DNA of 64,000 nt from a virus, in the IMG/VR virus record IMGVR_UViG_3300017783_000003, positions 52,793 to 116,792 of that record; one strand, 5' to 3'. Under the pieces are notes generated by a model, which worked only from the letters and a program-made list of their open reading frames with translations, did no database searches and was not told where the DNA came from. Of this stretch, positions 5,522-33,000 are shown in pieces; position 1 is the stretch's first letter, and each line of letters starts with the position of its first letter. The position numbers and the translations under genes were made by a program.

Positions 5522-5725
5522 ATGAACCACGGACCCCACTATCAAATCTTGCATCTACCCACAAATCAACCTATTAGATACAAGGGTGATATTGGGTTCA
5601 ATTCTTGTGATGAAGCAAAGAGAGTGATGAATGAATTTCATAAGGAAGAGATTAACGGTAGATTGGAGACCAATGTAAGATATAATGATTGTCGCATAGT
5701 TGCAAGACACGGTTATCTATTCTAA
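5522..5725 (+). CDS. Small phage protein, unknown function
   Basis: 67 residues. Alternating strands and helices ('HYQILHLPTNQPIRYKG', 'CDEAKRVMNEFHKEE', 'RYNDCRIVARHGYLF') suggest a small alpha/beta fold. It starts 15 bases after the preceding stop without a strong ribosome site. No family is recognised. Confidence 0.6.
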   Translation: MNHGPHYQILHLPTNQPIRYKGDIGFNSCDEAKRVMNEFHKEEINGRLETNVRYNDCRIVARHGYLF

Positions 5726-5805
5726 CCACTTGCTGAACTGTCCACTCAATCGCCATAGGGCATGAAAATGCTCTATATTATATTCATACCAAAGGGAACC
5801 ACCCA

Positions 5806-6213
5806 ATGAACACCACACTCACCAATGAACTTGTGGAAGACTACACAGTCATGTTGTGTGATGCTCTCTACATGAACTTCAAAGAGTACCAGATCCGTGC
5901 TCACAAGCGTAGCATCGCTAATGACATCAACATGGACTATCATCAGTCCAAGATCGATTACATCATGGACAATGGTGCAGACATCGAATTCTATGTTAAG
6001 CGTGGTCGTCGTTACCTGAAGGTCATGATGAAGGATAGTGGTGGACATGGGTCTGTTCATGCCTTCATTGATCGTAGCAGTGGTAATGTGTTTAAACCCG
6101 CATCTATCAATGCACCAGCGAAAGGAATACGCTATAATATCCTTAAGGAAGGCGATCGTGAGTATCTCTACACTCATGCCGACTGGTCTGGTGGTTATCT
6201 GTATGTCAGATAA
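5806..6213 (+). CDS. Conserved-type phage protein, unknown function
   Basis: 135 residues. An N-terminal helical part ('ELVEDYTVMLCDALYMNFKE') is followed by a beta-rich half ('RRYLKVMMKDSGGHGSVHAF', 'FKPASINAPAKGIRYNIL') and the end 'YLYTHADWSGGYLYVR'. Codon use is more GC-rich at third positions than in its neighbours, which often marks a well-expressed phage gene. An 80-base gap upstream holds a weak hairpin (5758-5773, GAAA loop) and AT-rich sequence that may contain a promoter I cannot define. Function unknown. Confidence 0.7.
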   Translation: MNTTLTNELVEDYTVMLCDALYMNFKEYQIRAHKRSIANDINMDYHQSKIDYIMDNGADIEFYVKRGRRYLKVMMKDSGGHGSVHAFIDRSSGNVFKPASINAPAKGIRYNILKEGDREYLYTHADWSGGYLYVR

Positions 6214-8965: not shown

Positions 8966-9070
8966 CTAAATGTATTAAAAAACATAGGTAATGTATTGTA
9001 ATGTACGGAGGTCTAGTTGCCTTAGCACGCCAGTCACCGAAAGTCAAGGAGCAATATGACAGTCCTCCAA

Positions 9071-9113
9071 GTGGCACAGAGACCTTGACAAACCCTCGGA
9101 AATCGAGTATATT
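9071..9113 (+). promoter_or_regulatory. Sigma-70 promoter with upstream GTGGCAC box
   Basis: TTGACA (9085-9090), 17 bases, TATATT (9108-9113). GTGGCAC at 9071-9077 ends 30 bases before the -10 element, the same position as in the promoters at 9710, 10712 and 11540; the would-be left arm (9056-9062) keeps TGACA. It should drive the 9236 gene or a short RNA ending at 9207. Confidence 0.65.
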
Positions 9114-9166
9114 GGGTACATCGAGGTTGAGGGATTGGCAACTTTCCTAAAAGTTCGATAAATCAG

Positions 9167-9207
9167 AAATCTCAAAAACTTAAAAAGTTTAAATAATGAG
9201 ATTTTTT
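9167..9207 (+). terminator. Terminator-like or attenuator hairpin
   Basis: AAATCTCA (9167-9174) pairs perfectly with TGAGATTT (9197-9204), enclosing a smaller AAACTT/AAGTTT stem, and a short T run follows. It lies about 85 bases after the predicted start of the 9085 promoter and before the 9236 gene, so it could release a small RNA or attenuate the gene. Confidence 0.5.
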
Positions 9208-9235
9208 AATTTTAAAAGTTAACCATTAACCATCT

Positions 9236-9472
9236 ATGACTTCTTTCACTAATTTGACTTCATCTGCTATTAACAAAGTAGAAGTAAATGACAGTAATGT
9301 TATGATTACTTACACTACTAGTGGTAATGAATACAAATATGCTCTAAATGGTATTAATAGTGTTGATTTTGTCAATACTATGAATGATATTGTCCAAAAT
9401 GGTCGTTCTGTTGGCAAATTCGTCAACAAATCGATCAAAGAGGACAAAACTCTTCAGATTATCTCAATCTGA
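9236..9472 (+). CDS. KTSC-domain-like protein
   Basis: 78 residues. 'SSAINKVEVNDSNVMITYTT', then 'NEYKYALNGINSVDFVNTM' and 'GRSVGKFVNKSI' fit the KTSC pattern (Ser-Ser-x-Ile start, beta strands, Tyr-x-Tyr, helix, then the variable KTSC-like tail). KTSC domains are short, widespread and of unknown role, often fused to or near nucleic-acid enzymes. It is preceded by the promoter at 9085 and the hairpin at 9167-9207. A second, more divergent relative may be encoded at 12298. Confidence 0.7.
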   Translation: MTSFTNLTSSAINKVEVNDSNVMITYTTSGNEYKYALNGINSVDFVNTMNDIVQNGRSVGKFVNKSIKEDKTLQIISI

Positions 9473-9474
9473 CT

Positions 9475-9481
9475 CTAAATA
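9475..9481 (+). promoter_or_regulatory. Late promoter-like CTAAATA
   Basis: CTAAATA directly after the stop of the KTSC-like gene and 21 bases before ATG 9502. The same string, at similar distances, precedes several structural genes in this window. Confidence 0.35.
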
Positions 9482-9501
9482 GTACACAATTTCACCGAAC
9501 A

Positions 9502-9663
9502 ATGGCAAAATCGAGTCAAAAATACACTGAATCCCCTAAAGAAACCTTTCGGGATGATTACGAGGATTTCGGTTATCAAGTCCAGAATAAGAAGCGTTAT
9601 TCAAAAAGAAATAAACGCAAATCTAAATTCAAAGACGATGATGTGTACGCAGACTATGAATGA
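9502..9663 (+). CDS. 53-residue Lys/Arg-rich protein
   Basis: ATG 9502 to TGA 9661-9663. Strongly charged and low in hydrophobics: acidic N-terminal half ('FRDDYEDFGYQVQ'), basic middle ('NKKRYSKRNKRKSKFK'), acidic end. Likely disordered, possibly nucleic-acid binding. No family is recognised. Confidence 0.55.
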   Translation: MAKSSQKYTESPKETFRDDYEDFGYQVQNKKRYSKRNKRKSKFKDDDVYADYE

Positions 9664-9709
9664 TACCAAAGTATGATGAATGATGCATCCCACCCAACCA
9701 GTTCTAGAG

Positions 9710-9752
9710 GTGGCACACAGTCGCTTCCAGAGGGGTCTGGTGGGACTATTGT
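9710..9752 (+). promoter_or_regulatory. GTGGCAC-type promoter
   Basis: GTGGCAC (9710-9716), 30 bases, TATTGTA (9747-9753), 6 bases, AGTCAA (9760-9765). The -10 heptamer and AGTCAA at the same distance recur in the promoters at 10697 and 11525. ATG 9778 lies 25 bases after the -10 hexamer, as in the other two. The left arm of the dyad is poor here. Confidence 0.55.
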
Positions 9753-9777
9753 AGACAAGAGTCAACCAACGAATTCA

Positions 9778-9945
9778 ATGAAGGACTACGGCAACGGCAT
9801 CCACGCTTCAAGTGACTGGTTAGCAGACATTGCTCGTCAGTGCATTGAGCGTGAGATGATGCAACGTCAAGCACGTCTAGCATCATACAAAGATGACGAT
9901 GACAGTGGACAGTGGGGAATCTGGAACATCAGCGACAGACATTGA
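9778..9945 (+). CDS. 55-residue phage protein, unknown function
   Basis: Start placed at ATG 9778 because a promoter with a predicted transcription start near 9759 lies just upstream; the frame is open back to 9673, but that segment is Gly/Ser/Thr-rich and overlaps the promoter. The protein has a helical core ('SDWLADIARQCIEREMMQRQ') and an acidic tail. Function unknown. Confidence 0.55.
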   Translation: MKDYGNGIHASSDWLADIARQCIEREMMQRQARLASYKDDDDSGQWGIWNISDRH

Positions 9946-9987
9946 CCCCTGACCCTGTAGACTAATCAAGTAAACAAACACAAGACC

Positions 9988-10209
9988 ATGAACGACACGC
10001 TGATCAACTTCCGAGACGAAGCACTCCGCCTAGTGGAAGAGGGACACGATGCCCAGCACATGTTGCTCTGCTGCTTAAAGTACATGAGTCAGGATGATGT
10101 TGAGGACATGCTTAAGATGAATGAATTCATGAATCCTCCAGAAATGGAAGAAGATGAAGATGATTGGTTTACTGATCCTAACAGTGTTGCAAGTTATCAT
10201 CATTATTGA
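9988..10209 (+). CDS. Small acidic phage protein, unknown function
   Basis: 73 residues. Helical first half ('INFRDEALRLVEEGHDAQHM', 'CCLKYMSQDDVEDMLKM'), very acidic second half with 'EMEEDEDDWFTDPNSVASYH'. The middle part resembles other short cyanophage proteins with 'MSQDDVEDML'-like helices. A terminator follows at 10227. Confidence 0.65.
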   Translation: MNDTLINFRDEALRLVEEGHDAQHMLLCCLKYMSQDDVEDMLKMNEFMNPPEMEEDEDDWFTDPNSVASYHHY

Positions 10210-10226
10210 AAACTTGTAAAAGTCAG

Positions 10227-10266
10227 AAAGTGAGATTTTTAAGAAAGTTAATTATCTCACTTTTTT
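10227..10266 (+). terminator. Terminator-like hairpin
   Basis: AAAGTGAGAT (10227-10236) pairs perfectly over 10 bp with ATCTCACTTT (10254-10263) around a 17-base loop, followed by more T (10264-10266). It closes the 9988 transcript. Confidence 0.6.
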
Positions 10267-10503
10267 CAATATTAAACTTTAAACATATTCTTTTACTATT
10301 AAACTTTAACTGTTAAACTATAATAAGAAAATAGATTATTAAATAACAATATATTAACAATATACAATATATTACTAATATAAACATACTGTCTATTACT
10401 AATACTAACTCTCTAAGTATTACTAATACAAACTCACTGTCTATTACTAATACTAACTCACTGTGTATTAGTAATACTAATCCAATCTAATTGCATTCTT
10501 ATT
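10267..10503 (+). other. AT-rich intergenic tract
   Basis: No gene is seen. The first hundred bases hold repeated TTAAACTTTAA-like strings; the rest is the 24-bp tandem array described separately. GTATTA-G-TAATAC (10465-10477) is a perfect small palindrome at the array end. Confidence 0.6.
10369..10488 (+). repeat. Tandem array with 24-bp period (about 4.8 copies)
   Basis: Four full units start at 10369, 10393, 10417 and 10441, with a partial fifth at 10465. Consensus is (c/g)TATTACTAATACTAAC followed by TCACTGT. The units at 10417 and 10441 differ at two positions. The array ends 15 bases before the 10504 gene. A second 24-bp-period array sharing CACTGT lies at 12655. Confidence 0.85.
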
Positions 10504-10689
10504 ATGAACCCAACTCTAATGATTTCACTCCTCCGTAAAGGAAGAAATGGGGAAGAAATCCTCTCCATTCTTGATATCATCACCGACAATCCTAGCACCA
10601 AAGTGATGCAAACTGTCGAGGCGTTAGGTGACACTATCTCTCGGGGAGTTAGTATCAATCAAGGTAGTCCAGAACCCGTGGAAATCTAG
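10504..10689 (+). CDS. 61-residue phage protein, unknown function
   Basis: Starts 'MNPTLMISLLRKGRNGEEIL' and continues with a helical 'SILDIITDNPSTKVMQTVEA' and a Glu/Pro-rich end. Basic then acidic; no membrane segment. It is first in the cassette between the two 24-bp arrays. No family recognised, but the length and codon use look genuine. Confidence 0.6.
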   Translation: MNPTLMISLLRKGRNGEEILSILDIITDNPSTKVMQTVEALGDTISRGVSINQGSPEPVEI

Positions 10690-10696
10690 TTACCAT

Positions 10697-10753
10697 GTGA
10701 CACTAATACTAGTGGCACAAACATTTACTTTTTGGGTGTGGATGCTGTATTGT
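10697..10753 (+). promoter_or_regulatory. GTGGCAC-type promoter with dyad operator
   Basis: GTGACAC (10697-10703), 8 bases, GTGGCAC (10712-10718) make a 22-bp dyad with one mismatch. TTTACT (10724-10729) could act as -35, then 18 bases and TATTGTA (10748-10754), then AGTCAA (10761-10766). Layout is the same, base for base, as at 11525. Confidence 0.7.
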
Positions 10754-10782
10754 AGTTTCAAGTCAAACAATTGTTTAAAACA

Positions 10783-11511
10783 ATGCTTCGCTTTTCACAC
10801 GGTAACGCAAAACTTAACCGTAACACGGTTATTTTCAACTTGCCTGCAGGATTCACTTGCCCTGGTGCTTTAAATTGTCTCTCAATGGCGGTTTTAGGTG
10901 ACAACGGCAAAAGGACAATTAAAGACGGTAAATTCACTGAATTCCGTTGTTTTGCTGCCTCCAGTGAGGTTCAATACGACGCAGTTTATAACAACCGTCA
11001 AGACAATTTCAAAACAATTGTTAAAGCATTGCGTGATGGAAATGCTGCTGATCTTATTAACGAAGGTTTGCAGAATGCACGTAAGAAAGCAACAACTAAG
11101 GTCAGGATTCACGAGTCTGGCGATTTCTTCAATGCCGAGTATTTGATGGCGTGGGTGTTAGTTGCACAGCACAATCCTGATCTTAAGTTTTACTGCTACT
11201 CAAAGAATCTTCCACTATTTGTTGGTTTGCAGTTGCCCTCTAATTTTTACTTAACAGCATCATATGGGGGTAAGTTTGACAACTTAATCGATGACGGGTT
11301 GTTTACACGTTACGCTAAAGTTTTCATGTCTGAAGATGATGCAAACCGTGCGGGTCTTAAAGTAGACTCACAGGATAATTCTTGCTTCGAGAATGGTCCT
11401 TTCGCCCTGTTAGTTCATGGTACTCAACCCAAGGGATCTGACTGGGGGAAAGCATCACGAAACAACCGCAAGATTCAGAAGGCAAAAGTAAAACAACCTG
11501 TTGCCGCTTAA
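10783..11511 (+). CDS. GP88-like phage protein (PF17338 type)
   Basis: 242 residues from ATG 10783, placed 30 bases after a -10 element. Features of the 'Gene product 88' family are visible in order: 'LRFSHGNAKL', 'NLPAGFTCPGALNCLSMA', 'EFRCFAASSEVQYDAVY', 'VRIHESGDFFNAEYLMAW', 'LKFYCYSKNLP', 'NFYLTASYGGKFDNLI', 'YAKVFMSEDDANRAGL' and a final Lys-rich tail. The conserved Cys pair and His/Asp (ESGDFF) suggest a metal site or enzyme, but the family function is not known to me. It has its own dyad promoter, so it is regulated apart from its neighbours. Confidence 0.75.
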   Translation: MLRFSHGNAKLNRNTVIFNLPAGFTCPGALNCLSMAVLGDNGKRTIKDGKFTEFRCFAASSEVQYDAVYNNRQDNFKTIVKALRDGNAADLINEGLQNARKKATTKVRIHESGDFFNAEYLMAWVLVAQHNPDLKFYCYSKNLPLFVGLQLPSNFYLTASYGGKFDNLIDDGLFTRYAKVFMSEDDANRAGLKVDSQDNSCFENGPFALLVHGTQPKGSDWGKASRNNRKIQKAKVKQPVAA

Positions 11512-11524
11512 GTGTAAACAATGT

Positions 11525-11581
11525 GTGCCACATGTATTTGTGGCACTAACATTTACCATTTGATTTTAAATCGTGTATTGT
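11525..11581 (+). promoter_or_regulatory. GTGGCAC-type promoter with perfect dyad
   Basis: GTGCCAC (11525-11531), 8 bases, GTGGCAC (11540-11546): a perfect 7-bp inverted repeat. TTTACC (11552-11557), 18 bases, TATTGTA (11576-11582), 6 bases, AGTTAA (11589-11594). Many positions match the promoter at 10697, including AACATTTAC after the right arm, so one is probably a copy of the other. Confidence 0.75.
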
Positions 11582-11606
11582 ATATACAAGTTAATCAATT
11601 CTTTAC

Positions 11607-11816
11607 ATGTTGACCGCAAACTGGGCAGTTCAACCATCATCATGGAGCAATTTTGATCCTCACGGGTGTACGTGGGCAACCGACATTAATCACGCCTATC
11701 GTTTATTCAGTGCATGGAGTGAGGATGTAACAGTGTGGATTATTCCTCACAATGGTAATCCTTACCGTTGGACCACTAAGTTATACATAGAGGGGCAAAA
11801 AGATATTTCAAACTAA
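11607..11816 (+). CDS. 69-residue protein, unknown function
   Basis: Start ATG 11607 sits 26 bases after the -10 hexamer. Trp-rich ('WAVQPSSWSNFDPHGCTWAT', 'WSEDVTVWIIPHNGNPYRWT') with alternating strands and helices; it may be a small alpha/beta fold like those of phage-encoded host-takeover proteins, though that is only a resemblance in style. No known family. Confidence 0.65.
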   Translation: MLTANWAVQPSSWSNFDPHGCTWATDINHAYRLFSAWSEDVTVWIIPHNGNPYRWTTKLYIEGQKDISN

Positions 11817-12297: not shown

Positions 12298-12573
12298 ATG
12301 TCTCTCTCCTTCGATATCGCTGATTCCATGATCTTTCGTGAGTTCAGTGATAGTGAATCATCTGCAATCCATTGTCTCTCAGTGTTACATAACAACGTAA
12401 CAATTGGATTCAAAAGTGATATCTCAAAGCAGTATATCTTCCGAGGTAGTGTTAAGTTTATCGCACACATTCGTGCCCTCTTAACTAACTGGAATTCCGA
12501 TGAAATTAGCATCGGTTCAGTGATAGCGAAAGCACGTAAATCAGGAGATCTCGAAATTATCAACAATTTCTAA
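12298..12573 (+). CDS. Small KTSC-like or related phage protein
   Basis: 91 residues. 'SESSAIHCLSVLHNNVTIGF', then 'KQYIFRGSVKFIAHIRALLT' and 'SDEISIGSVIAKARKSGDL' parallel the KTSC layout (Ser-Ser-Ala-Ile, beta strands, Tyr-x-Phe, helix, Ser-Ile-Gly/Gly-Lys tail) seen at 9236, but are more diverged. A perfect terminator lies 28 bases after the stop, closing the cassette. Confidence 0.6.
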   Translation: MSLSFDIADSMIFREFSDSESSAIHCLSVLHNNVTIGFKSDISKQYIFRGSVKFIAHIRALLTNWNSDEISIGSVIAKARKSGDLEIINNF

Positions 12574-17082: not shown

Positions 17083-20000
17083 ATGGCATCCGTTACGACT
17101 AGGAATATTTCTACTCTTATTGAGAGTCAGTTACCTGCTTTCATTGCAAGTGAGTACGAAAGTTTTTCTAAATTTGTAGAGAAATATTACGAACATTTAG
17201 AAACCAGAGGTGGACCTCTAGACATCATTACGAATGTCACAAAATATCGTGATATTAACTTCTATGAAAAGAATCTCCTAAAGCAAACCACAAAGGTCAC
17301 TCAGTTTGTTCAGGAAGCAGCAACCACTATTACTGTTGAGGATGCATCATCATTTCCAGAAGAGAATGGATATATCAAGATTGGAAACGAAATTTGTTTA
17401 TATAAAAGTAGAACTGATACAGAATTCTTAGAAGTTAGTAGAGGCATCAGTGGAAATACCACTCTTGGTGACTTGTATGGAGAGTCTAACTTTGTTACTA
17501 CCCAGGCAGAACCTCATTATGTAAACAATGAAGTTTACAATATCAGTAATCTGTTCTTGTATGCTCTGGTAAAGAACTTTGAATCTCAGTATCTTGGAGG
17601 ATTCCCAGAAAAGTATCTTAAGGGTGAAGTAGATAAGAGAACCCTGATTAAGAATATCAGTAGTTTCTATAAGTCTAAAGGTACTGATAAGTCTATCAAG
17701 TTTATCTTCAACGCTATTGTAGCGAAAGACGAAGAGGATATCCCCGAGGTATACAATCCTAAGGACTATACTTTAAAAGCATCAACTTCCGACTGGATCA
17801 GTAATTACAGTCTCAAAGTAAAAATTCTGTTCGGAGACTCGCAAAATCTAGTTGGCAGAAAGATTGTTCAGCGTAATCAAGATAATTATGCTTCTGCCGT
17901 AGTAGATGCCGTAAGATATGGTGGTGCTAACGGTGTATTTGAAGTTATTCTATCACCATCTTCTATTAATGGAAATTTTGATATTGCAGCACAAACAACA
18001 CTGAAGACAGACGTTAACGTTGGTGCTGGAGAGGGAGATAGAGTAGATGTTGGTTCTACTACTGGTTGGACAGGAAAGCAAGGAACATTTGTTATTAACA
18101 CAGAGAATTTCACATTCAATGATAAGAATGTAACTCAATTTATTTTATCAGGCAGATCAAATCCAAATACTACTCACATTGCTGGAACTCCTGTTTATAG
18201 TGGCGACAGTATCACCGCAGAAACAGAGAATGGCATTATCAGTCTTCTTGCACTGGGTCTAGTATATAATATCAACCCAAGTTCTCCACAACCATATTCT
18301 ACTAGTGGTGATAAAGTTCAAATCTCTAAACCTGGATTTGAGTCAGTACACCCCGCTATTGATGGTTCGGATTGGTTTGTTAACTATAACTACAGAAAAG
18401 CATTCTCTCCACTAAATTCAGCAATTTCTTCGGTAATTAACAATCTAAATTCTGATGTCTCTGCGATTTATGAAGATGATCAGTATTTTTATATCTGCTC
18501 GACTGGATATCCTCATCATGCTATATTAAAAGAAACTTCTCCTGTCAATCTAGTTGACGGTAAACTATTAAAACTTATTAGAAAATATCCTTCTAATACC
18601 ACAGAAATTTACGAAACCTCTAAAAGAGACGTTGCTATATTCCTTGATGGTTCTACGGCATTTGGATATCGTGATAATGACGAAATTGCTGTTGGAAAAA
18701 TTGTTTCTACTAATTTAGTAAACAAAGGTGTTGGATATCAGTCTGCACCTTTTGTACTGATTAACAACGAACCTTACAAGGCAACTGCTATTGTAGCAGG
18801 TGAAGTTATTCAAAGTATCAGAATTGATGAAGAAGAGGTGTATAATGCCGATCCAGAGATCACTATTACTTCTGGTAGAGGAGCAAAAGTAAAACCAATT
18901 GTAACCTCTGGTGAAATTACAAGCATTATCGTCACGGAACCTGGAGAATATTATTCTTCACCTCCGCAGATTAGAATCTTTGATGCTCTAGGAAAAGGTT
19001 CATTTGCGGAATTTGAAGCAGTATTAACTACAGATGGACGACTTGCCTCATGTAAGAAGATCAATGGCGGACGTTTATACAATAGAAACACCCTAATTGT
19101 TGATATTGTATCTGTTGGTAGTGGTGCTTATGCGGAAGCATCCGTAAAAAGATGGATTAAAGATCGTTACAAATTGCATTTCAGTGAACTTGACGATAAC
19201 AATGGTCTTACTGTTGATGAGTATAGCGGAAGAGGTAAGCAATATGCGGTAATTGCCAACCCAGGAAACTTGAGATATCGTCTTGGAGACAATATTAATA
19301 ATGTATTGTCCGAAAACCCCGCACCACATACACACTCACCAATTATTGGATGGGCATATGATGGCAATCCAATATATGGACCATATGCTTATTCTAATCC
19401 TGGAGACGCTAATTCCACTATTGCTAGAATGAATAGTGGTTATGTACTACAGAATAACAGAGTTAATGGTCCAGACATCAATCAATATGAAGTCGGAACA
19501 TTTATTGATGATTGGAAGTGGACTCCTTCTGTCAATAGCGGCAAGACTGAATTAGATGCTAACAATGGTAGATTTTGTGTTACCCCCGAGTATCCATCTG
19601 GTACATATGCATACTTCATAAGTATTGATGCTAACGGAGATCCAAAGTTCCCATATATCTTGGGTTCTAATTTCTACTCTCTACCTGTTGACTCCAACTA
19701 CAATTCCAAGATGAGTCAGGATGACCTTCCTAAGAATGTGAGAAGACTTAGATCAGATACTCTGGATGTCAATGGTATTGATACTCTTGCTACTATTGCG
19801 GATGTAATTAAGGGCAATATTAATAAAGCATATGCAGATGCTTCCGCAGAAACGTTCTCTATTGGTAGTGAACTGTTTGTAGACAATGATGGTTCTGGTG
19901 GTTCTGGAGCAAAAGCATTAGTTTCTGAGGTAACTGGAGAACCAGTTGTCAATTTAGAGTCGATTGATACTAAAGCAACTATCATCGACACAGTAACTTC

Positions 20001-23000
20001 TGCGTACTTTTTCGCAGGCGATACGGTTTATCAGGGAGAAGGTGTAACTCAGACAGAATTGATTACGGACAACCGAGTTGTTACCGCATTTGAATTCTCA
20101 AGTTCTCCTGATGTAAAAGTTGTTAATGACCTTATTCTCCAACCACCCGATGGAGAATTCCGTGTTATCAAAGAAATTGTTTCAGACATTGTTCAAGGTG
20201 AGGTTATCGGTGACGTTGTAAACAACAACAGAGTGGTGCTTAGGAACGTCCAGGGCACGTTTGATTCCACTATTCCTATCTTTGCTGCCATCAAGGTCGT
20301 AAACCTGCTCCTAGAGACAGATGCAACGTACTCTCAGGGTGCAACCTTATCTTTGATCAATGATGAATCAGGATTAACGTTTGCGACAGGTAAAGTTGTA
20401 GATGGGACATTTAAACAAAATTCAGTTAAGATCAGAATTCAAACTGGCGATTTCTTCAATGATGAAGGGTATACTGTAAAGAGTGATGTCCTAGAAGATA
20501 CTTCAAAATCTATTGTTATCTCCACATCTTCCCTTAGTGAGAATATCCAAGTGGTTTCCACTAATGATAATGTTGCTATGATTCAGACTATCGGGGAGCA
20601 TAATCTGGGTGAAGGTGATAAAGTAAATGTTAATATTTTTCCAGAAGATAACGAAACAACTACAACATATTACGTAAGAAAGAGACTCTACCAAACAGTC
20701 AAAATTGACTCTATATCTATTTCTTCTAACATTAAAGATACTGGTATTGGTAGATTTGATTTGATGAATAGTGGTTCTGGTTATCAAGAAGGTTCGTACA
20801 GTAATGTGGAACTATATTTTCAAGATCAAACCAAAGTCAGAAGAAATATTGGTAGACCTGGAGATCCCAACAATGCTAGAGCAAACATCACTGTTTATAA
20901 TCTAGGTGGTGGATTTGGTCGTGTAAGTTTCATTGAATTAGTAAACAAAGGATCTGATTATAGAAAAGGTGATATTCTTACAGTAGATGACGAAATTTTA
21001 AACAGAAGTCCTGATACCACTTCTTCCCAACGCTTAACGTTATTCGTAGATCACTCTGGTTTTGGCGCAGATGAAACTATTCTGAACGTATCTTCTGCCA
21101 CAGACATCTCTAATGAAGATGTATTGAGAATTGGACGAGAGATTGTTAAAGTAACTGCGGTAAATCGTCAAGATAATCAACTAACTGTTATTAGAGGAGA
21201 AAATAATACTGACGCTATTGATCATTACAACAATCAACCGCTTGAAATTGAAGAGTCTTCTTATAAATTAGATACAAATTATCAACCACTTGGATCTGAT
21301 ATCAACAAACCTTATGTTGTTAATTACGACGAATCTACTCGTACTCTAATTACAGCATTCAACTACACTACAGCATCGCCAATTACGTTCCTACAGAGTA
21401 GCATTTTCTTCGATCAAAATGTTCCTTCAAAGTTTGTTCGCATTAAATCTATAGAGGAGTCACAGTATAAACTAGAGTTTAGTACAGATAATATTAACTT
21501 CACTGTTAATCCACAGATTGAAGTTCAAAAATACTATAATTATGTGTTTGATACTAGTCATCCTTCAATGAACAACACGTTCTTGGATTTTTCTGCTAGT
21601 GTAAACTATAATCTACTAACTTCCGAAAAATCAGTAAGCACAAATCTTCCTGGAACTGCAGGAGCGTTTGTTTCCTTGAAACTAGGTTTTGGTCCTAATA
21701 TCAGTACGAACACTTATGAAAATGAAGTACCTGTCAATTTCAACAATTACTATTACTTTATTAAAGCTTCTGATAATGTAAACACTGATGGTGCTTCTTT
21801 AAAAGTTATTCAAGATCCTCTTGCAGGTGAGCAAAGGGTTGTTTACTCCACCAGTAATAGATTTGTATATGAACTTTCTTCTATTCCTCAATTTGATGGT
21901 ACTGGAAATGTTTCATATACAACAAGTGGTGCATTTGCTATCGGTAATATTTCTAATATTGGTATTATTGACACGGGATCTAATTATACTGAACTACCTA
22001 TTTGTAAAGGTGTACTTCCAACAATAACATATCAAGCAGAAACAGAAACAATTATTGACACATCTAATGGTAGTATTGGTTCTGTACGTGTTATCAATCA
22101 AGGTGTTAACTATTCAAAACCAATTGCTTTAGTAACTAATGGTGATGGCACTGGAGCAAGGTTTGATTGTCTTATTGAAAATGGAAAAATTAAATCTATC
22201 CTCACTCTTAATGGTGGAAGAGATTACACATTTGCTGAAGTAAAAGTATTTGAATCTGATGTAGACATTTTCTTTACTAGTAATAATATTGGTATTCCTA
22301 AAAATGCTAAGATTATTAGATCTGGATACGGTTATACGTCTGACTATACTACACTACCAAAATTTACTTCTACATTAGTATTAGCACTAAAAGATTTTGG
22401 CGATACTGTGTTTTTCAGTGGAGAAGAAATCAAACAGTATGTAGATGGTGTTGTTGTAGCAAAAGGTAGAGTAACTAAGAACGGATGGAGAATTGGAAGT
22501 AACCTTCTCAAATTAGAAAACGTTGTAGGTATTTTTAGAGAGAATTCTCTTATTGAAGGATTTTATTCTGGAAAGAGTGCAACTATTGTAAAACAGATTG
22601 CGACAGATTTTACTTCTGATCTTAGAACATATTCTGATAACCTTGGTAGATATAATTCAGAAAGAGGTCACCTTAGTAAGAATTCACAGAAACTAGCAGA
22701 TTCTTATTTTTATCAGGATTATTCTTATGTAGTTAGATCTAAGTCTTCTATTGATGTTTGGAGAGACTTAATTAAAGAAACTACTCACCCAGCAGGATTT
22801 AAACTGTTTGGTGAGATGATTATTGAATCTGAGGCACAAAGTGCAATGCCTCAAGAATCTAGAGTTATCGAAACTCATTCATTTATTAATTTAGAACCAA
22901 AAAATATCTCTGTTGTAGATACTAAGAAATTTGTTAAGCAAAGTATTATACTTTCTACTGGTCTCAACATCCAACGTGGTATTGGTTCAGTTTCAGTTGA

Positions 23001-26000
23001 TACTTTTGATACTGGAGAGACTGTTGCTAAAGAATTAATTCTTGACAGACCTTTCAATGGTGATTATAATGAGGATAGTGGCGTTCTTTTTGGAGACACT
23101 GTATACACTCTAATTGATCCCAGAGAAGGTACAGCATACACTCCATACAGCGAAAACGGTCTTATTGTAACTATCGATGGTGTACTACAAGAACCTGGAG
23201 TATCTTTCACGATTGATCGTAATAAAATTGTATTCTCAGAACCTCCTCTTGGACTTAGAATTGCAGAGGGTCAGGAAGTTGTAGCACAAAAGTTTTATTG
23301 TTTATCAATTAAATTTAAAGATAATAAACTTAACGATCAATACATTAGAAAAATTGCAAGTATTAGTGACCAGTTTGATGGATCTAAAACTTTATTCAGT
23401 CTATACAATGAAGATGGTACTATTGTTAAAACATTACCTAATGAAAAATTAATTGTTACTCTAAATGGCGTTTTACAAAGAGCACGTAAGGATGAAGAAA
23501 ATCCTTTTGGTAATTCTTATGCAATTATTAGATCTGTAGATCCAAATAGAACCGATCAAATTCAATTCACCGAACCACCTATTAGTCATGGTGAATTGTA
23601 TGAAAGCACTGATGATATCAATATCGCTGAGAAGTGCTTCATTTATAGTGTAGGTTCTTATACACGTCTTGTAATTGATGAGAAAACTATTAAGTATAGA
23701 GGGCAAGGTCCATTCCTTCTTAGAGATGAAGTTACAAATGATGTCGTTAAAGTTGACAGTCCAGAGTATGCTGTCGTCTTTGTAGACGGTGTTCTACAGA
23801 TTCCTGGTAAGTCTTACAATATTGTGGGACCGACCATTACATTTGATGCTCCTTTATCATATTATGAAGAAGAAGATGGAACTTTCTTCCCTCAAAAAGT
23901 TGATATTCTTCTTTTATATGGAAGAGATAAAGAAAAATCTTTAACATTCTTTGATTACGAACCAGACACCTTCCTTGCTGAAGCAACGGTAAAAATTTCT
24001 AATGCATTATCAGATGCTAGTTCTTCTAGCGATTTGGGTAATTTAGAAAATTGGTTTATTAACAGAGTACCTAATGATGTAAAATTAAATCAAAAAAATG
24101 ACACTCTTGGTAAGATCAAGCGTGTAGCATTTGAAGATGAAGTTATTGATGGAACTGCATATAGAACATTATCTCTACTAATTGTTACACCATACTTCTT
24201 TGATCTTAAATATGGATCAGATGATCTAGATTTTTACTTTGACGATCCAAAAACTGGTTCGACAATTATTCTACCAATTGAAAATGGTTTCTTGCCTGGA
24301 CCTGGAAATATTCCTACGCAAGTTAGATCAGTCAGTTTTCAAACCGATTCTGATGGCAATCCTGAACTAGGTTTAGATCTCCCATCATGGTTGAAAGGAA
24401 CTGAATTAGGTTATCAAGCATATCTCAATAAGTCTTCACTATATGCCAATCTTAGTATTGGTGACCTAATCCGCATTGATGGTGAAAAAACTTATAGAGA
24501 AGTTTTAGATCTTCCTGATAAAGTTAAATCTAAACAGTTTAACAAAAATGAATACTTATCTTCGGACATTTATGCAAATATTAAGACTACCAATTATAAT
24601 GATATTGTAAGAGGTGCAGGTCTTGCTATCACTGCAGAGATTGATGCCAATGGTTCTGTTACTAAGTTAAATTGGAATCGTAGGGATCTTAACTTATATT
24701 TTGAGAATGATATTCTCATTCAATCTTCGGCATATCAGTATTTCACTCCACCTATTGTTGAATTCATCCCAACAACCAATGCTGGTGGTGGTGCTAAAGC
24801 ACAGGTTATTGCTACTGGCGGTAACATAATTGATCTCGTCTTACTTGAAGGTGGTTATGGGTATGAAGAAGTACCTAGAGTTCGTGTTGCAAGAGGATTC
24901 GATAGAATCAAAGGTAATACCAGAACTATTAAGAGTACATCTATTCTTGATATCTCTCCACCAATTTCATTCCCTGCAGATCCAGGTGCTCGCAACTCGT
25001 CTAGTGGTGGTGGCGGAGAAAGTGGTAGAGGAACTGGTACATATCTTGCTACTTACACCGAAGTTGTAATCAGTCAGACAGGTGAAGCGGGTGAGTCTTT
25101 ATTCATCTATGTTGACCTTAGTTCAGTAGTTGGCAACTTAGATACAACCAAACAGATTACTATTATACCAGCAGCAGGAGCAACTACTGTTTCTATGCCA
25201 TCTGCCAGCATCAATGAAAGTGAAGTTGCATTTACTGGCATTGAGAAATCTGTCAGTAGCAGTGTTCGGGTCTTCCAACCTGCAGAAATTAACATCTTCA
25301 CTGATCCAGTTCCATTCTCTGGTGTTCAGCAGGTTGAAAGCACGGCAACTGTAAGTGATGTTTCAACACAAATCACCACTACTTTACCCGCTACAGTTAT
25401 TACTGAAGCAGTTTATCAAGTAGACACAGCATCTATTAATGATGTTGGAGCATTCTTGGATGCACCCGTCGAGATCGATGATACAATCATCTTTGTACCA
25501 AATACTAGAAGGTTCCCTCAAGCAAGTAGACTTCTTATTGGTAAAGAGATTGTTACTTACACAAAGACTAAGCAAGACAGATTCATGTATGTCGAAAGAG
25601 GAACTTTCGGCACTACAGCAGAATTCCATAATGCAGGTGATTATCTCAGACATCTACCAGAACTCATCAGTGTTATTCCTATTGGTAATATTGAAGTCTT
25701 TACTATCGAGACTTCTGTTCGTGTCCAGGAAAGTCATACTCAAGCAACAACAGTTACCGCTACAAGTTTTTCGGATGTTAAGTCTGTAAGCGAACTTGAG
25801 TTTACAACTCAGATTGAGCGTGAAACTCAAATTGAAGAGAAATATGAAGGATTCTTCGTATCAGAAGAAGTTATTGTTATTCCTCCTGAATTTATTACTC
25901 CTACTATTACTACTATTCATAATAGTAAGAGTGAAGTTAAGTCGGTTATTCCTCCTGCTGGCATTGAAGGTGCGGTATCTTCTGGTGTAGTCACCTTAGA

Positions 26001-28044
26001 AGATACTACTATCAGAATTGTCAATACGTTTGATCTTGGTATCAACTACGACATTATCGTATCTAAGCAGATTGTTTCTGAAACTGACTACGATTTCTCT
26101 TCTGTAACATCACTGAAGACTACTGTTACTAAGACAGTCAACTCTCAGGATCAGTTTATTAATGTAGTACAACGTGAACTTGACTTTACTGAGTTTAATC
26201 ACTCTATCGTTATTACCGCTGAAGTTAATGACATCGATTCAATCACTTCAGTTCTACCTGGAGTTGAGGAAGTAAATCGATTTATTGTTTCTACTTACGC
26301 CACAAGTGAGTCTGATATCAAGGCATTTAATACTGAGTGGAAACAAACTGCACAACTGACTCAACGTGGTGCAATTGAAGATAATGTATCACTAATTAAT
26401 GTAACATCTGATGTCCCAACTCTCAATGTTGAGGTTCTTCAGATTGAGACCCTCACCGAAATTCAGAAGATTACTCATACCCGTGTAACTCTTTCTGAAA
26501 GGGAAGAAGTACTTGAGGCACTAACTTCTGCGTCTGTAGTTGGCGTAGAGGTCACTGGCGTTGGTGTGGAAGGAATTGTATCTTCCGCTAGAATTGATAC
26601 CAATGCCGTTAGAGAGTCTCTCAAAGTTTTGAGACTTGATATTAATCATGAATTAGTAATCTCAACAGAAGTGGTTAGAGATCCATTTGAAACTGACTAT
26701 CAGCAGACTGTTACATCCAACTTCTTTAGAGTTGAATATGAAGCAACTGTAGTACAAGGCGGCGTAGACATCTATGCCGATCCATCTGTTAAAGTAGTAA
26801 GTAGTCAACATATCATCAAACCTCAAGTTGATATTGCAACTAATAGTCAGGTTACTACTACAATCCAAAGCATTAACAAGCAGGTTACTATCAAACCCGC
26901 TGATTCTATTATGGCGGTGGAGGTTGAATACGGAATTACCCGTGTCTTCTACTTCAATGCACCTCCATTAGAACTTGCTTCTATTGAAGAAGTTACAATT
27001 ACTGGTGTTGATAGGCAAATTTCAGTTGGTACAATAGTAAGAGAAAGTGCTGAAAGTATTCTTTCTTCACAGACTACTGCAGTTAATGATAATTTGAGTG
27101 CTATTGCAAGCACAGTCGTTTCCTCAAATTATGAAACTCATCATACAGTTGCAAATACTGTTACATATGACATTGATACGACGATTAGAGCATCCTCTAC
27201 TACCATCACGGATCAGGTAGATTCCTTAGATACTACATCTTCATTGATGACAGTTTCTAAGACTGCTGAGATCCCTGCGTTCTTCACTATTGAACCTACA
27301 GTCTTCTCTAGACTTACCGCAACATCATCAAATATTGTTGCTACTACACGACCAGATGAGATTCAGCATACCATTAGTATTACTACTGGTCTTGCTGCAG
27401 ATGAAGATCAGCAAGGTGCATCTAGAGAAATTGATTACGAAATTGGTATTCTCGACTTCTTCACTGAACTATATGTTCTACCTCCGAAGATCAAGACGAG
27501 AAATCAAGGCGAGTTTGACCTTGGCGATCCTATCAATGAGGTCTTCACTAGAGAGCAAGGAATTATTCTTGTTCTTAACGCCAATAGAGCCCGTGAGGAG
27601 TTCTATGATGGATACACAGTGGGTAATGCAGGATTTACTATGACAGGATTTGAAAATAACATGATGATTGATACTGGTGCTTTTAGAGTATCAGGTGATA
27701 TCGCTGCTATCACTATGATGTTCCCTGATATGACTATTCAGGACTTCACCGAAAGGCGTAGTTCTGCTGTAACCATGACTGGAGAACGCTTCAATATGGG
27801 TATTCCAACTATTAATGAGATTGGATCGGTTCTTTCCGCATCTATTACAAATGAGACAAGTTTGGATATAAATAATGCGGGTCCCTTCCCAGATTCTGGA
27901 CTAATTCTCATTGGAACTGAATTGATTAAGTATACCAGCAAGTCTGGCAATACATTGCAAGATCTAACAAGAGGATATGAGGGAACCGTTTCTGTGGGTC
28001 ATTCCGCAGGAGACTATGTGAGAACATTTGGATCTTCTAGTTGA
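17083..28044 (+). CDS. Giant gp7-position baseplate protein with YHYH domain
   Basis: 3653 residues, about three and a half times T4 gp7 (1032), placed between gp6 and gp8 where gp7 belongs. The N-terminal 300 residues look like cyanophage gp7 ('SEYESFSKFVEKYYEHLE', 'SKGTDKSIKFIFNAIVA'). A YHYH domain lies at about 743-850 (His 749 and 751, 'GWAYDGNPIYGPYAY'). Five copies of a roughly 50-residue module with 'IGxExixY...RG..GT' are scattered from residue 90 to the C-terminus, and three 'DGVLQxPGxSY' beta repeats occur near residues 2030-2260. Residues about 2650-3450 are Thr/Val/Ser-rich degenerate repeats. Likely a structural wedge protein with an extended surface arm. No catalytic function is claimed. 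Confidence 0.82.
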   Translation: MASVTTRNISTLIESQLPAFIASEYESFSKFVEKYYEHLETRGGPLDIITNVTKYRDINFYEKNLLKQTTKVTQFVQEAATTITVEDASSFPEENGYIKIGNEICLYKSRTDTEFLEVSRGISGNTTLGDLYGESNFVTTQAEPHYVNNEVYNISNLFLYALVKNFESQYLGGFPEKYLKGEVDKRTLIKNISSFYKSKGTDKSIKFIFNAIVAKDEEDIPEVYNPKDYTLKASTSDWISNYSLKVKILFGDSQNLVGRKIVQRNQDNYASAVVDAVRYGGANGVFEVILSPSSINGNFDIAAQTTLKTDVNVGAGEGDRVDVGSTTGWTGKQGTFVINTENFTFNDKNVTQFILSGRSNPNTTHIAGTPVYSGDSITAETENGIISLLALGLVYNINPSSPQPYSTSGDKVQISKPGFESVHPAIDGSDWFVNYNYRKAFSPLNSAISSVINNLNSDVSAIYEDDQYFYICSTGYPHHAILKETSPVNLVDGKLLKLIRKYPSNTTEIYETSKRDVAIFLDGSTAFGYRDNDEIAVGKIVSTNLVNKGVGYQSAPFVLINNEPYKATAIVAGEVIQSIRIDEEEVYNADPEITITSGRGAKVKPIVTSGEITSIIVTEPGEYYSSPPQIRIFDALGKGSFAEFEAVLTTDGRLASCKKINGGRLYNRNTLIVDIVSVGSGAYAEASVKRWIKDRYKLHFSELDDNNGLTVDEYSGRGKQYAVIANPGNLRYRLGDNINNVLSENPAPHTHSPIIGWAYDGNPIYGPYAYSNPGDANSTIARMNSGYVLQNNRVNGPDINQYEVGTFIDDWKWTPSVNSGKTELDANNGRFCVTPEYPSGTYAYFISIDANGDPKFPYILGSNFYSLPVDSNYNSKMSQDDLPKNVRRLRSDTLDVNGIDTLATIADVIKGNINKAYADASAETFSIGSELFVDNDGSGGSGAKALVSEVTGEPVVNLESIDTKATIIDTVTSAYFFAGDTVYQGEGVTQTELITDNRVVTAFEFSSSPDVKVVNDLILQPPDGEFRVIKEIVSDIVQGEVIGDVVNNNRVVLRNVQGTFDSTIPIFAAIKVVNLLLETDATYSQGATLSLINDESGLTFATGKVVDGTFKQNSVKIRIQTGDFFNDEGYTVKSDVLEDTSKSIVISTSSLSENIQVVSTNDNVAMIQTIGEHNLGEGDKVNVNIFPEDNETTTTYYVRKRLYQTVKIDSISISSNIKDTGIGRFDLMNSGSGYQEGSYSNVELYFQDQTKVRRNIGRPGDPNNARANITVYNLGGGFGRVSFIELVNKGSDYRKGDILTVDDEILNRSPDTTSSQRLTLFVDHSGFGADETILNVSSATDISNEDVLRIGREIVKVTAVNRQDNQLTVIRGENNTDAIDHYNNQPLEIEESSYKLDTNYQPLGSDINKPYVVNYDESTRTLITAFNYTTASPITFLQSSIFFDQNVPSKFVRIKSIEESQYKLEFSTDNINFTVNPQIEVQKYYNYVFDTSHPSMNNTFLDFSASVNYNLLTSEKSVSTNLPGTAGAFVSLKLGFGPNISTNTYENEVPVNFNNYYYFIKASDNVNTDGASLKVIQDPLAGEQRVVYSTSNRFVYELSSIPQFDGTGNVSYTTSGAFAIGNISNIGIIDTGSNYTELPICKGVLPTITYQAETETIIDTSNGSIGSVRVINQGVNYSKPIALVTNGDGTGARFDCLIENGKIKSILTLNGGRDYTFAEVKVFESDVDIFFTSNNIGIPKNAKIIRSGYGYTSDYTTLPKFTSTLVLALKDFGDTVFFSGEEIKQYVDGVVVAKGRVTKNGWRIGSNLLKLENVVGIFRENSLIEGFYSGKSATIVKQIATDFTSDLRTYSDNLGRYNSERGHLSKNSQKLADSYFYQDYSYVVRSKSSIDVWRDLIKETTHPAGFKLFGEMIIESEAQSAMPQESRVIETHSFINLEPKNISVVDTKKFVKQSIILSTGLNIQRGIGSVSVDTFDTGETVAKELILDRPFNGDYNEDSGVLFGDTVYTLIDPREGTAYTPYSENGLIVTIDGVLQEPGVSFTIDRNKIVFSEPPLGLRIAEGQEVVAQKFYCLSIKFKDNKLNDQYIRKIASISDQFDGSKTLFSLYNEDGTIVKTLPNEKLIVTLNGVLQRARKDEENPFGNSYAIIRSVDPNRTDQIQFTEPPISHGELYESTDDINIAEKCFIYSVGSYTRLVIDEKTIKYRGQGPFLLRDEVTNDVVKVDSPEYAVVFVDGVLQIPGKSYNIVGPTITFDAPLSYYEEEDGTFFPQKVDILLLYGRDKEKSLTFFDYEPDTFLAEATVKISNALSDASSSSDLGNLENWFINRVPNDVKLNQKNDTLGKIKRVAFEDEVIDGTAYRTLSLLIVTPYFFDLKYGSDDLDFYFDDPKTGSTIILPIENGFLPGPGNIPTQVRSVSFQTDSDGNPELGLDLPSWLKGTELGYQAYLNKSSLYANLSIGDLIRIDGEKTYREVLDLPDKVKSKQFNKNEYLSSDIYANIKTTNYNDIVRGAGLAITAEIDANGSVTKLNWNRRDLNLYFENDILIQSSAYQYFTPPIVEFIPTTNAGGGAKAQVIATGGNIIDLVLLEGGYGYEEVPRVRVARGFDRIKGNTRTIKSTSILDISPPISFPADPGARNSSSGGGGESGRGTGTYLATYTEVVISQTGEAGESLFIYVDLSSVVGNLDTTKQITIIPAAGATTVSMPSASINESEVAFTGIEKSVSSSVRVFQPAEINIFTDPVPFSGVQQVESTATVSDVSTQITTTLPATVITEAVYQVDTASINDVGAFLDAPVEIDDTIIFVPNTRRFPQASRLLIGKEIVTYTKTKQDRFMYVERGTFGTTAEFHNAGDYLRHLPELISVIPIGNIEVFTIETSVRVQESHTQATTVTATSFSDVKSVSELEFTTQIERETQIEEKYEGFFVSEEVIVIPPEFITPTITTIHNSKSEVKSVIPPAGIEGAVSSGVVTLEDTTIRIVNTFDLGINYDIIVSKQIVSETDYDFSSVTSLKTTVTKTVNSQDQFINVVQRELDFTEFNHSIVITAEVNDIDSITSVLPGVEEVNRFIVSTYATSESDIKAFNTEWKQTAQLTQRGAIEDNVSLINVTSDVPTLNVEVLQIETLTEIQKITHTRVTLSEREEVLEALTSASVVGVEVTGVGVEGIVSSARIDTNAVRESLKVLRLDINHELVISTEVVRDPFETDYQQTVTSNFFRVEYEATVVQGGVDIYADPSVKVVSSQHIIKPQVDIATNSQVTTTIQSINKQVTIKPADSIMAVEVEYGITRVFYFNAPPLELASIEEVTITGVDRQISVGTIVRESAESILSSQTTAVNDNLSAIASTVVSSNYETHHTVANTVTYDIDTTIRASSTTITDQVDSLDTTSSLMTVSKTAEIPAFFTIEPTVFSRLTATSSNIVATTRPDEIQHTISITTGLAADEDQQGASREIDYEIGILDFFTELYVLPPKIKTRNQGEFDLGDPINEVFTREQGIILVLNANRAREEFYDGYTVGNAGFTMTGFENNMMIDTGAFRVSGDIAAITMMFPDMTIQDFTERRSSAVTMTGERFNMGIPTINEIGSVLSASITNETSLDINNAGPFPDSGLILIGTELIKYTSKSGNTLQDLTRGYEGTVSVGHSAGDYVRTFGSSS

Positions 28045-30035: not shown

Positions 30036-33000
30036 ATGCCACAGAAGACTAACCTAAACGTATCTCCATATTTTGATGATTTTGATACTGACAAGAATTT
30101 TTACAAGGTTCTTTTTAGACCTGGATATTCTGTGCAAACTAGGGAATTAACATCCCTACAGTCTATCCTACAAAACCAAATAGAAAGTTACGGTAAATAT
30201 CGATTTAAACAAGGACAATTAGTAATACCTGGCGAAGTGGGTTTGAACAACAGACTCAATTTTGTCAAGCTTTCTTCTGTTTCCGAAGTTGCTGTAAATG
30301 AAAACGGTGCTATTGTCTACAAAAAATATGACATTAAGCAACTAATCGGATCCACCTTGAGAGGCATCAACTCTGGAGTCTCTGCTGTAGTTGTTGAAGT
30401 TAAATATGCAACAGAAGAATCTGCAGATCTCATTTTTGTAAATTACATCAACAGTGGCGATGATGGGAATGAATCCACTTTCAGACAAGGCGAAACTTTA
30501 GAAGTTGTTGGTGGTGTCAATACTCCCCTGTTAGTTGTTGGTACTGACGGAAGTGTATTGCCAACATCAATTCAAATTATTGATCCTGATACTGGAGATA
30601 ATTCTTCTCTCAGCAGTCCTGCAATGGGATATGCAACTGCATTAAAAGTAGAAGAAGGTATTTACTTTGTTAATGGATTTTTTGTTCGCAATGACGAACA
30701 ATTAATTGTTCTCAATAATTACTACGATAAAGCCTCTGTTAAAGTAGGATTTGCTATTGTAGAAGATATTATTACTCCAGAAGAAGATGCTTCTTTGTAT
30801 GATAATGCAAGAGGATACTCAAACTCTTCTGCCCCTGGTGCTCACCGACTTAAAATTAAATTAGAACTTAAGAAGTTTGAATATAAGGCACTAACAGATA
30901 AAAATTTTATTCAGATTATTCAGATCAAGAATGGTGTAGTTGAAAAGCAAATTAAACCTGCAGACTATACTCTTCTTGAAGAAACTTTAGCAAGAAGAAC
31001 TTATGACGAATCTGGCGACTATGTAGTTAAAGATTTTACTATTGATACTAGAGAGTATTATCAACGTAATGGAAACAATGGTATTTACAAGCAAGGAGAT
31101 AATGGACTTGTAAAGGGTCTTTCTGCAACAGAAGCAGAAACAAAACTTGTTGTTAGTGTAAGTCCTGGTAAAGCATACGTACGTGGATTTGAAATTGTCA
31201 ACAAAGAAGTCAAATATCTTACTATTGAGAAAGCTAGAGATACTTTAACTAGAGATAATGTAACTGTTAAATCTAGAGGTGCTTCTGCATTTAAAGTTAG
31301 TAACGTATATGGAACTGTACCTCTCAATACTGTTGCTGGAGAACTGAGTGCATATCCAGACGTATATTTGAATGCAGTATTTAATGATGGTAGTATTGGT
31401 TTTAATGGTCTAGAAGAAGAAACTAGTTATAAATTTACTACCTCCAGACGTGCAATTGAGTTTGGATTGGATAAGGGTCTCAAGACCATTATGATTAACG
31501 TTACTGAGGGTAATGCAGATCCAGTAGTAAAATCAGACTTCCCAACTAAACTATGGTATGTAAAATCTAGAAGTGGTAGTACACCAACGTCTGCTGGGTA
31601 TATTGATATTGTAGCATTCTCTAATGCAAACGATATTAATGTTGCAGGCACAACTTCATATTTTGTTGAAGCAACTATCTATGGAGAAAGATCTGTTCTG
31701 GATGAGTATTTTGTTGAGTATGATGAAGGTGATCCATCCAAGTATAGAATTTTGTATAAAACTGAAGCGGATGTTCTGCCTCCAGAAGGATACACCCCAG
31801 AGCTTTCTTATGGTAGATTGGTTTCATATACAAACACAATTACCCCTACTATTGGTGTAGTAAAACCAAAAGATTTCAGTCTATCTGATAGACCTGACGG
31901 ATTTAGTCAAGACACAGATAAAATTATTTCCAGAGGAAAATCTGGTGTAAACGCACAACCATATAGTGGTATCTTCAATTTTGGATACTTTAATCCAACA
32001 TTCTTTACTAGAATAACCTTAGAGACCACACCAGCAGAAGGATTTGGATCTGGTAAATATATCTACGGCAAGACCAGTAATGCTGTTGGAGTCATTGAGA
32101 ATGATCTAAGTTCTAACTATAGTAGTGGTTCTAAATTATTTGTCACAACAATTGCAGGTCAGTTCCATTCGGGAGAAACCATTTTTGATGAGCAAGGATT
32201 CTCAATCAAAATTGCAAAAGACAATACAATTTCCCACTTCATTTGCACAAAGCGTGGTACTGGATATGGTAGCGACGACTCTACCAGTCTTTTTATCAAT
32301 GGCAATGAGATCAATAATTCTAAAGTAGCACCAAGAACTTCTGGTCAAGGAATTTATAGAATCGAAGTTCTAGATCGTTCTGCTCTTAGAGAAACTTTTA
32401 TTGCACCACCACAAGTTAAAGCATTCCCAATTCAAGAATCTGCGGCAAACAATCCATCAGTTATTCCAGTTCTGTATAAGAATACTGTTCTAACTTACAC
32501 CCCGCAGAATGTCAAATCTCTGCAGTCTACTTATAATAATTACAAATTTACTGCAGACGTTGATTTTTCTAAAACAAAATATTCAGATTATAGACCTATC
32601 ACCAACTTTAGTTTCTCTGGTAAGCAGGGTTCTAAATTCCTTGAGTGTAGTGGTTTTGGAGCAAATCTATCTAAAGACCTTATTCAAGGTGATATCATTC
32701 AGTATACTGATGGCGATGATAATATTGTCAAGAATATTGTTCAATGGACTAGTGATGCAGAAGGTACAGTTAAATCTAGAATCTATTTAACTTATTCATT
32801 GAGAGATGATGTTACAAACATTTCTGTTGTTAGAGTAAGACCTTTAGTATCTAATGTAAATGCTTCATTAATTTTTCCAACTGGAAGTAAGCAAATTGCA
32901 TCTCTAGTTAGAGATAGTTCTGATACAAAAATTAAATACTATGTTAGAAAAGATTTTACTTCTGATCTAAATGCTGCTGGCGGTGTCATCACCTTCACAG

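Follow-up and report, generated by a model that had tools for sequence, protein, structure and literature searches.

In phage T4, the MotA box of middle promoters lies near −30. The sites of P2 Ogr and P4 delta are palindromes centred near −55, where a phage activator touches host RNA polymerase at promoters with a poor −35 element. The early promoter and stem-loop (PeSL) cassettes of T4-type phages were reportedly described by Arbiol in 2010 and by Comeau in 2014. For cyanophages, Doron et al. are said to have found in 2016 (ISME J 10:1437) that early genes of Syn9 and P-TIM40 are under a novel regulatory element, which is conserved across the T4-like cyanophages. Such phages rank among the most abundant viruses that infect the main primary producers of the ocean. 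The literature describes the ordering of their early transcription without MotA and AsiA as unresolved. Cyanomyoviruses lack both motA and asiA (PMC2984593, PMC5780444). Here we describe a promoter element found in five copies in 64,000 nucleotides of viral DNA (the window). The window is positions 52,793 to 116,792 of the 116.8-kb virus record IMGVR_UViG_3300017783_000003. Its closest annotated relative is Synechococcus phage Sf-FR1, with 81% identity across 87% of the first 25 kb. Genes for baseplate gp6 and a 2-oxoglutarate (2OG)-oxygenase mark the virus as a T4-like cyanophage. Judging from sequence, we consider it likely that each copy of the element is a host σ70 promoter joined to a 24-bp operator, from which a dimeric protein would activate small, probably early genes.

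An alignment of 66 diverse copies shows that the operator is an inverted repeat of 24 bp, TGTGCCA[C/G]TT-N4-AA[C/G]TGGCACA. The heptamer GTGGCAC, the starting point of an earlier note on this DNA, is its promoter-proximal arm. That note described a dyad GTGNCAC-N8-GTGGCAC. The palindrome is present, but the operator is longer. On the plus strand the heptamer occurs, as the note had it, at 9071, 9710, 10712 and 11540; an occurrence at 62078 was missed. On the minus strand it occurs at 11525, where it forms the left arm of site 4. The gaps of 30, 30, 29 and 29 bases to the −10 element are also as claimed, as are AGTCAA, AGTCAA and AGTTAA 6 nt past TATTGTA.

The five copies are site A (5722–5779) and sites 1 to 4, all on the plus strand. 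They were scored with R1, a sequence-only model run on whole phage records. The operator of site A is at 5722–5745 (CTAACCACTTGCTGAACTGTCCAC; R1 match 5726–5786, 25.0 bits, E 4.7e-6). Those of sites 1 to 4 are at 9055–9078 (TATGACAGTCCTCCAAGTGGCACA; 25.0 bits), 9694–9717 (CCAACCAGTTCTAGAGGTGGCACA; 22.4 bits), 10696–10719 (TGTGACACTAATACTAGTGGCACA; 29.2 bits) and 11524–11547 (TGTGCCACATGTATTTGTGGCACT; 32.0 bits). At site A, the −10 element TATATT (5774–5779) starts 40 bp from the operator centre. Sites 2, 3 and 4 carry TATTGTA at 9747–9753, 10748–10754 and 11576–11582, respectively. TATTGTA is thus exact in three of the earlier note's four promoters, as stated there. Site 1 instead has a σ70-type core promoter at 9085–9113, consisting of TTGACA (9085–9090), 17 nt and TATATT (9108–9113), and the fifth copy, site A, had been overlooked. 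Alignment with Sf-FR1 shows that sites 1 to 3 are conserved there, whereas site 4 is absent at the same place in this 81% identical relative. Sites of the site 1 type also occur in S-WAM2 and ACG-2014j. The corresponding S-CAM3 region can be aligned, but its right arm is degenerate. Both the −35 and the −10 of site 1 are kept at the orthologous places in Sf-FR1 and S-CAM3.

By itself, GTGGCAC shows only mild enrichment in the window, with 9 occurrences versus 3.7 expected. The gapped pattern GTGGCAC-N28-31-TATTGTA was expected to be commoner than in shuffled sequence, and it is. It occurs 3 times in the window and in none of 100 shuffles; hence, it is not due to chance. As a scan across phages, the pattern recovered relatives but is too permissive a classifier. 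In pattern scans of 2.9 million viral contigs, many relatives were among the matches listed, and few of the listed matches showed the dyad or an ATTTAC element on checking. With gaps of 22–34 nt allowed, the distance from dyad to −10 was 29 or 30 in 46 of 52 distinct matches. A profile built from 43 seeds was then applied to 2.1 Mb of loci at a threshold of 15 bits. This gave 361 distinct sites (512 raw matches) and none in the reversed control. We also used a symmetric position weight matrix made from the 24 bp alone, ignoring the −10. It found 210 operators in about 390 kb, compared with 11 in reversed sequence. The signal is the full operator at a fixed distance from the −10, not the gapped pattern alone.

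The register is narrow. At offsets of 40, 41 or 42 bp from the operator centre, a −10 word starts in 109 plus-strand and 31 minus-strand cases; 0.64 are expected by chance per offset. With a conventional −10 at −12 to −7, the operator centre falls at about −53 relative to the inferred transcription start. The words are of σ70 type (TATTGTA, TATAATA and TATATT), with TATAATA and TATTGTA the commonest. A TANNNT hexamer thus stands at a fixed place, as in σ70 promoters. TTGACA 16–18 nt upstream is not general. All six bases are present in 2–4% of sites, and the best −35 typically matches 3–4 of 6, slightly more than in shuffled spacers; site 1 departs from this.

The element also has a fixed place before genes. 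Of 32 sites in five annotated isolates, 23 end 15–27 nt ahead of the annotated start of a coding sequence. Across all loci, under strict rules, an open reading frame starts 10–30 nt downstream of 38% of sites. The figures for shifted and opposite-strand controls are 6% and 2.7%. In the window, genes start at 5806 after site A, at 9778 after site 2 (phrog_10986) and at 11607 after site 4 (phrog_6036). The site A gene (5806–6213, plus strand) encodes a DUF7717 protein (PF24835). Both P-SSM4 and the gp68–gp69 unit of Syn9 also have DUF7717 homologues directly behind the element. The site 3 gene (10783–11511, plus strand) belongs to the GP88 family (PF17338; Pfam E 8.8e-40). Overall, at least 89 unrelated protein clusters are represented among the downstream genes, and almost none has a known function. 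They include Kyanoviridae Gp96, phrog_649, DUF7717, DUF7249 and, in the window, GP88. Most copies directly precede small orphan genes in one variable region. The element clusters in variable (hyperplastic) regions, such as 46–53 kb in Syn9 and 42–68 kb in P-SSM2. The small regulon suggested by the earlier note is not supported, given about 2–15 copies in most T4-like isolates, up to 37 raw matches per contig and this range of clusters. Its central idea, that the promoters share one DNA-binding factor and that the spacing decides the case, gains support from the R1, coding-start, arm and operator-only tests.

Briefly, we propose that host σ70 RNA polymerase would use each site through a −10 that is often extended, usually without a good −35. 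A dimeric DNA-binding protein would occupy the operator, about 53 bp before the transcription start, beside the polymerase. The bound protein would recruit or stabilise polymerase, and short genes beginning about 20 nt past the start site would be switched on. The family is scattered over the variable small-gene region, and its genes would probably be early ones serving host takeover. A dimer-sized operator near −53, its fixed register and the poor −35 together fit an activator contacting σ70 polymerase. The factor may be made by the phages or may be a host protein that they alone use.

The distribution of the element bears on this choice. R1 matches occur in 14 of the 15 T4-like cyanophage isolates examined, namely 13 of 13 in a first panel plus P-HM2. 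The counts, which include some reverse-strand matches to one and the same palindrome, are 8 in Syn9, 7 in S-PM2, 9 in P-SSM4, 15 in P-SSM2, 3 in S-RSM4, 6 in S-WAM2, 6 in ACG-2014j, 2 in ACG-2014d, 12 in S-SRM01, 5 in Sf-CH11, 2 in S-B43, 5 in Sf-FR1, 6 in S-CAM3 and 5 in P-HM2. Six metagenomic or isolate contigs have 8–37 matches each. R1 has no match in T4, Microcystis phage LMM01, S-TIM5, the T7-like phages P-SSP7 and Syn5 or the cyanosiphovirus PSS2. Nor does it match S-CREM1 or the Pelagibacter phage HTVC008M, which belongs to the Kyanoviridae. Absence in these phages is not absolute. The operator-only scan found 9 operator-like sites in S-TIM5 (3 in reversed sequence), 4 with a −10 in register. 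In HTVC008M there were 11 (2 reversed), with 1 in register.

A host transcription regulator might have been recruited by the phages, in the manner of PhoB or NtcA. Such a regulator would be a rival to a factor made by the phage and leaves the operator reading untouched. Promoters of S-PM2d use host PhoB (PMC10976474), and HTVC008M, a member of the Kyanoviridae that infects Pelagibacter, has no model match. Against this, matches are also missing from cyanophages with similar hosts, namely S-TIM5 and those of the T7-like and siphovirus types, and the consensus differs from that of NtcA and from the Pho box. The exact composite pattern had 10 matches in 84,980 bacterial and archaeal genomes, none in records titled cyanobacterial; this is weak evidence because most sites would escape so strict a pattern. 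We consider a host regulator unlikely, though not far-fetched. As a tentative proposal that we would not put at even chances, T4-like cyanophages may bring or make an undescribed dimeric activator of the 24-bp consensus. Its large regulon, made up of small takeover genes, would replace early and middle control of the T4 type.

Alternatively, a repressor on the operator could shut early genes off later, the promoters being otherwise plain host σ70 promoters. A palindromic operator in itself tells nothing of activator or repressor, and some sites, such as site 1, have a full σ70 promoter. The operator is nevertheless centred near −53 and lies upstream of the −35, in the position of an activator, and most sites lack a good −35. 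The promoter-proximal arm is also better conserved than the other, with 13.7 versus 9.9 bits of information (12.6 versus 9.4 in isolates). Repression appears improbable.

Several points weigh against activation by a dedicated factor. At the few sites with a perfect −35, site 1 included, an activator may be unneeded. Annotated starts fit no more than 23 of the 32 sites. Because the patterns used to fetch the contig loci included GTGGCAC, that set is biased towards the right arm. Isolates, which were not so fetched, have the same arm asymmetry, but the model that found them had been trained chiefly on contigs. A comparison of gene presence between six positive phages and S-CREM1, HTVC008M and S-TIM5 gave no recognisable DNA-binding candidate and no helix-turn-helix protein. 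Apart from unknowns, it returned nothing but methyltransferase D12, DUF7717 and an Sm-like protein. Since DUF7717 genes recur among the targets, autoregulation is conceivable, although unsupported. The S-CAM3 gp215 'DNA binding protein' was rejected as regulator, since Pfam identifies it as a pyrimidine-dimer glycosylase. A σ54 promoter, which has TGGCAC at −24, was also rejected; by eye there is no −12 element at the right distance. Cyanobacteria are not known to have σ54. For the phage regulator pMarR, no palindromic consensus is reported (PMC9692554).

Activation from a DNA operator must also be set against RNA structure. In a PeSL cassette, an RNA stem-loop coupled to an early promoter terminates upstream transcripts, and the repeats shuffle genes, as in RB49 and T4-type phages. 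The sites do lie in a variable region, and their arms are able to fold (site 4, −16.3 kcal/mol, z −3.9). A near-identical 39-bp stretch of one promoter is shared by otherwise dissimilar phages. In S-PM2, a stem-loop at 11369–11391, discussed in this light (PMC4503421), falls inside the R1 match 11350–11408. The arms themselves argue otherwise. They pair at 71.2% of positions, compared with 70.5% when arms are dealt at random. In isolates the values are 0.614 and 0.640, mismatched arms being slightly commoner than chance. T-rich tails follow only 3% of operators, and the distance to the −10 is constant to ±1 bp. Without arm covariation or a U-tract, the palindrome is therefore a DNA operator, and its reading as an RNA hairpin or terminator is rejected. 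A separate terminator-like hairpin does lie between operator and −10 at about a quarter of isolate sites, most clearly in P-SSM2. Hence, some promoters may also end the upstream transcript. The PeSL explanation as a whole seems quite improbable. Chance recurrence of a heptamer near A+T-rich words is suggested by the mild enrichment and the many dyad-free contigs that match the gapped pattern, but all profile and spacing tests refute it and its probability is practically nil.

Site 1 differs in what follows it. A short structured RNA is predicted at 9119–9206 (plus strand), with a terminator-like hairpin at 9165–9206, before the KTSC-like gene at 9236. The fold has a z of −3.1 in the window and −4.6 in Sf-FR1. 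This RNA of about 90 nt has a 5′ hairpin as well as the terminator-like one and is conserved in Sf-FR1. No convincing Rfam match was found for it. Inclusion of the KTSC-like gene in the regulon, as the earlier note had it, is doubtful because the predicted terminator intervenes. Given the strong fold and this hairpin, site 1 may instead yield a phage small RNA. The KTSC-like small proteins are phrog_4357 paralogues, encoded at 9236–9472 and 12298–12573, about 3 kb apart.

Other features were seen near the element. Intergenic repeats of the types TCTATTACTAATACTAACTC and TATTACTAATAC lie at 10380–10470, before the gene at 10504. At four loci (L226, L183, L186 and L028), a short inverted repeat directly follows the −10, for example GAACGGAGTTC, ATTACGAAGTAAT and CATACATGTATG. 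Such a repeat might fold as a hairpin at the mRNA 5′ end or serve as another operator, overlapping the start site. The 89-kb contig G005 (L188, L211) has 37 raw model matches; those listed are mostly on one strand in the first 26 kb. Several of its spacers are near-identical, as if a promoter had been amplified within one phage. Beyond baseplate gp6, the window holds three giant plus-strand reading frames, at 17083–28044, 30036–38117 and 42685–53160 (3653, 2693 and 3491 aa).

A precise operator in fixed register could serve as bait for its regulator and allows the regulon to be listed in any genome or metagenome. The operator may also mark takeover genes among small genes of unknown function. 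How does the element compare with known systems? NtcA- and PhoB-dependent cyanophage promoters likewise add an operator to a σ70 −10. Their consensus is GTA-N8-TAC or CTTA-N7-CTTA (PMC3037559), unlike the palindrome here. An NtcA site would be centred near −41.5, whereas the consensus TGTGCCACTTGTACAAGTGGCACA is centred near −53. The likeness to P2 Ogr and P4 delta is an analogy of mechanism only. In both cases a palindrome stands upstream of a weak promoter, here with its centre 40–42 bp before the −10 start. The sequence differs, and no Ogr-like protein was found, none having been sought. T4 middle promoters, served by MotA and AsiA, also place an activator site upstream of a σ70 −10 in a T4-like phage, but sequence and position differ. 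A putative middle promoter was seen in P-SSM4 and Syn9 and not in P-SSM2, S-PM2 or S-RSM4 (PMC2984593). The element described here is probably not that promoter, because it is present in all five phages.

PeSL cassettes share with the element the repetition of promoters in a hyperplastic small-gene region and, in a minority, a terminator-like hairpin. They differ in having a covarying, U-tailed terminator where the element has a DNA operator in fixed −10 register. In a comparison for PeSL-type recombination, spacer likeness was 0.59 within contigs and 0.47 between them; in isolates the values hardly differ (0.39 and 0.37). The element described here is likely to be the same as that of Doron et al. 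Both reportedly occur in T4-like cyanophages including Syn9, as ours does in 14 of 15 isolates, and show conservation throughout the group. Both probably lie upstream of early genes; here these are small genes of unknown function, which is suggestive only. The earlier note's statement that no such cyanophage regulon was described is not supported, although the work of Doron et al. is here a lead rather than a test. The control element was probably already reported in 2016, so novelty is modest and the window copies are new members of a family probably described before. If the two are the same, our analysis adds to what Doron et al. are said to have described an operator of 24 bp, the finding that its arms do not covary and a survey of phages.

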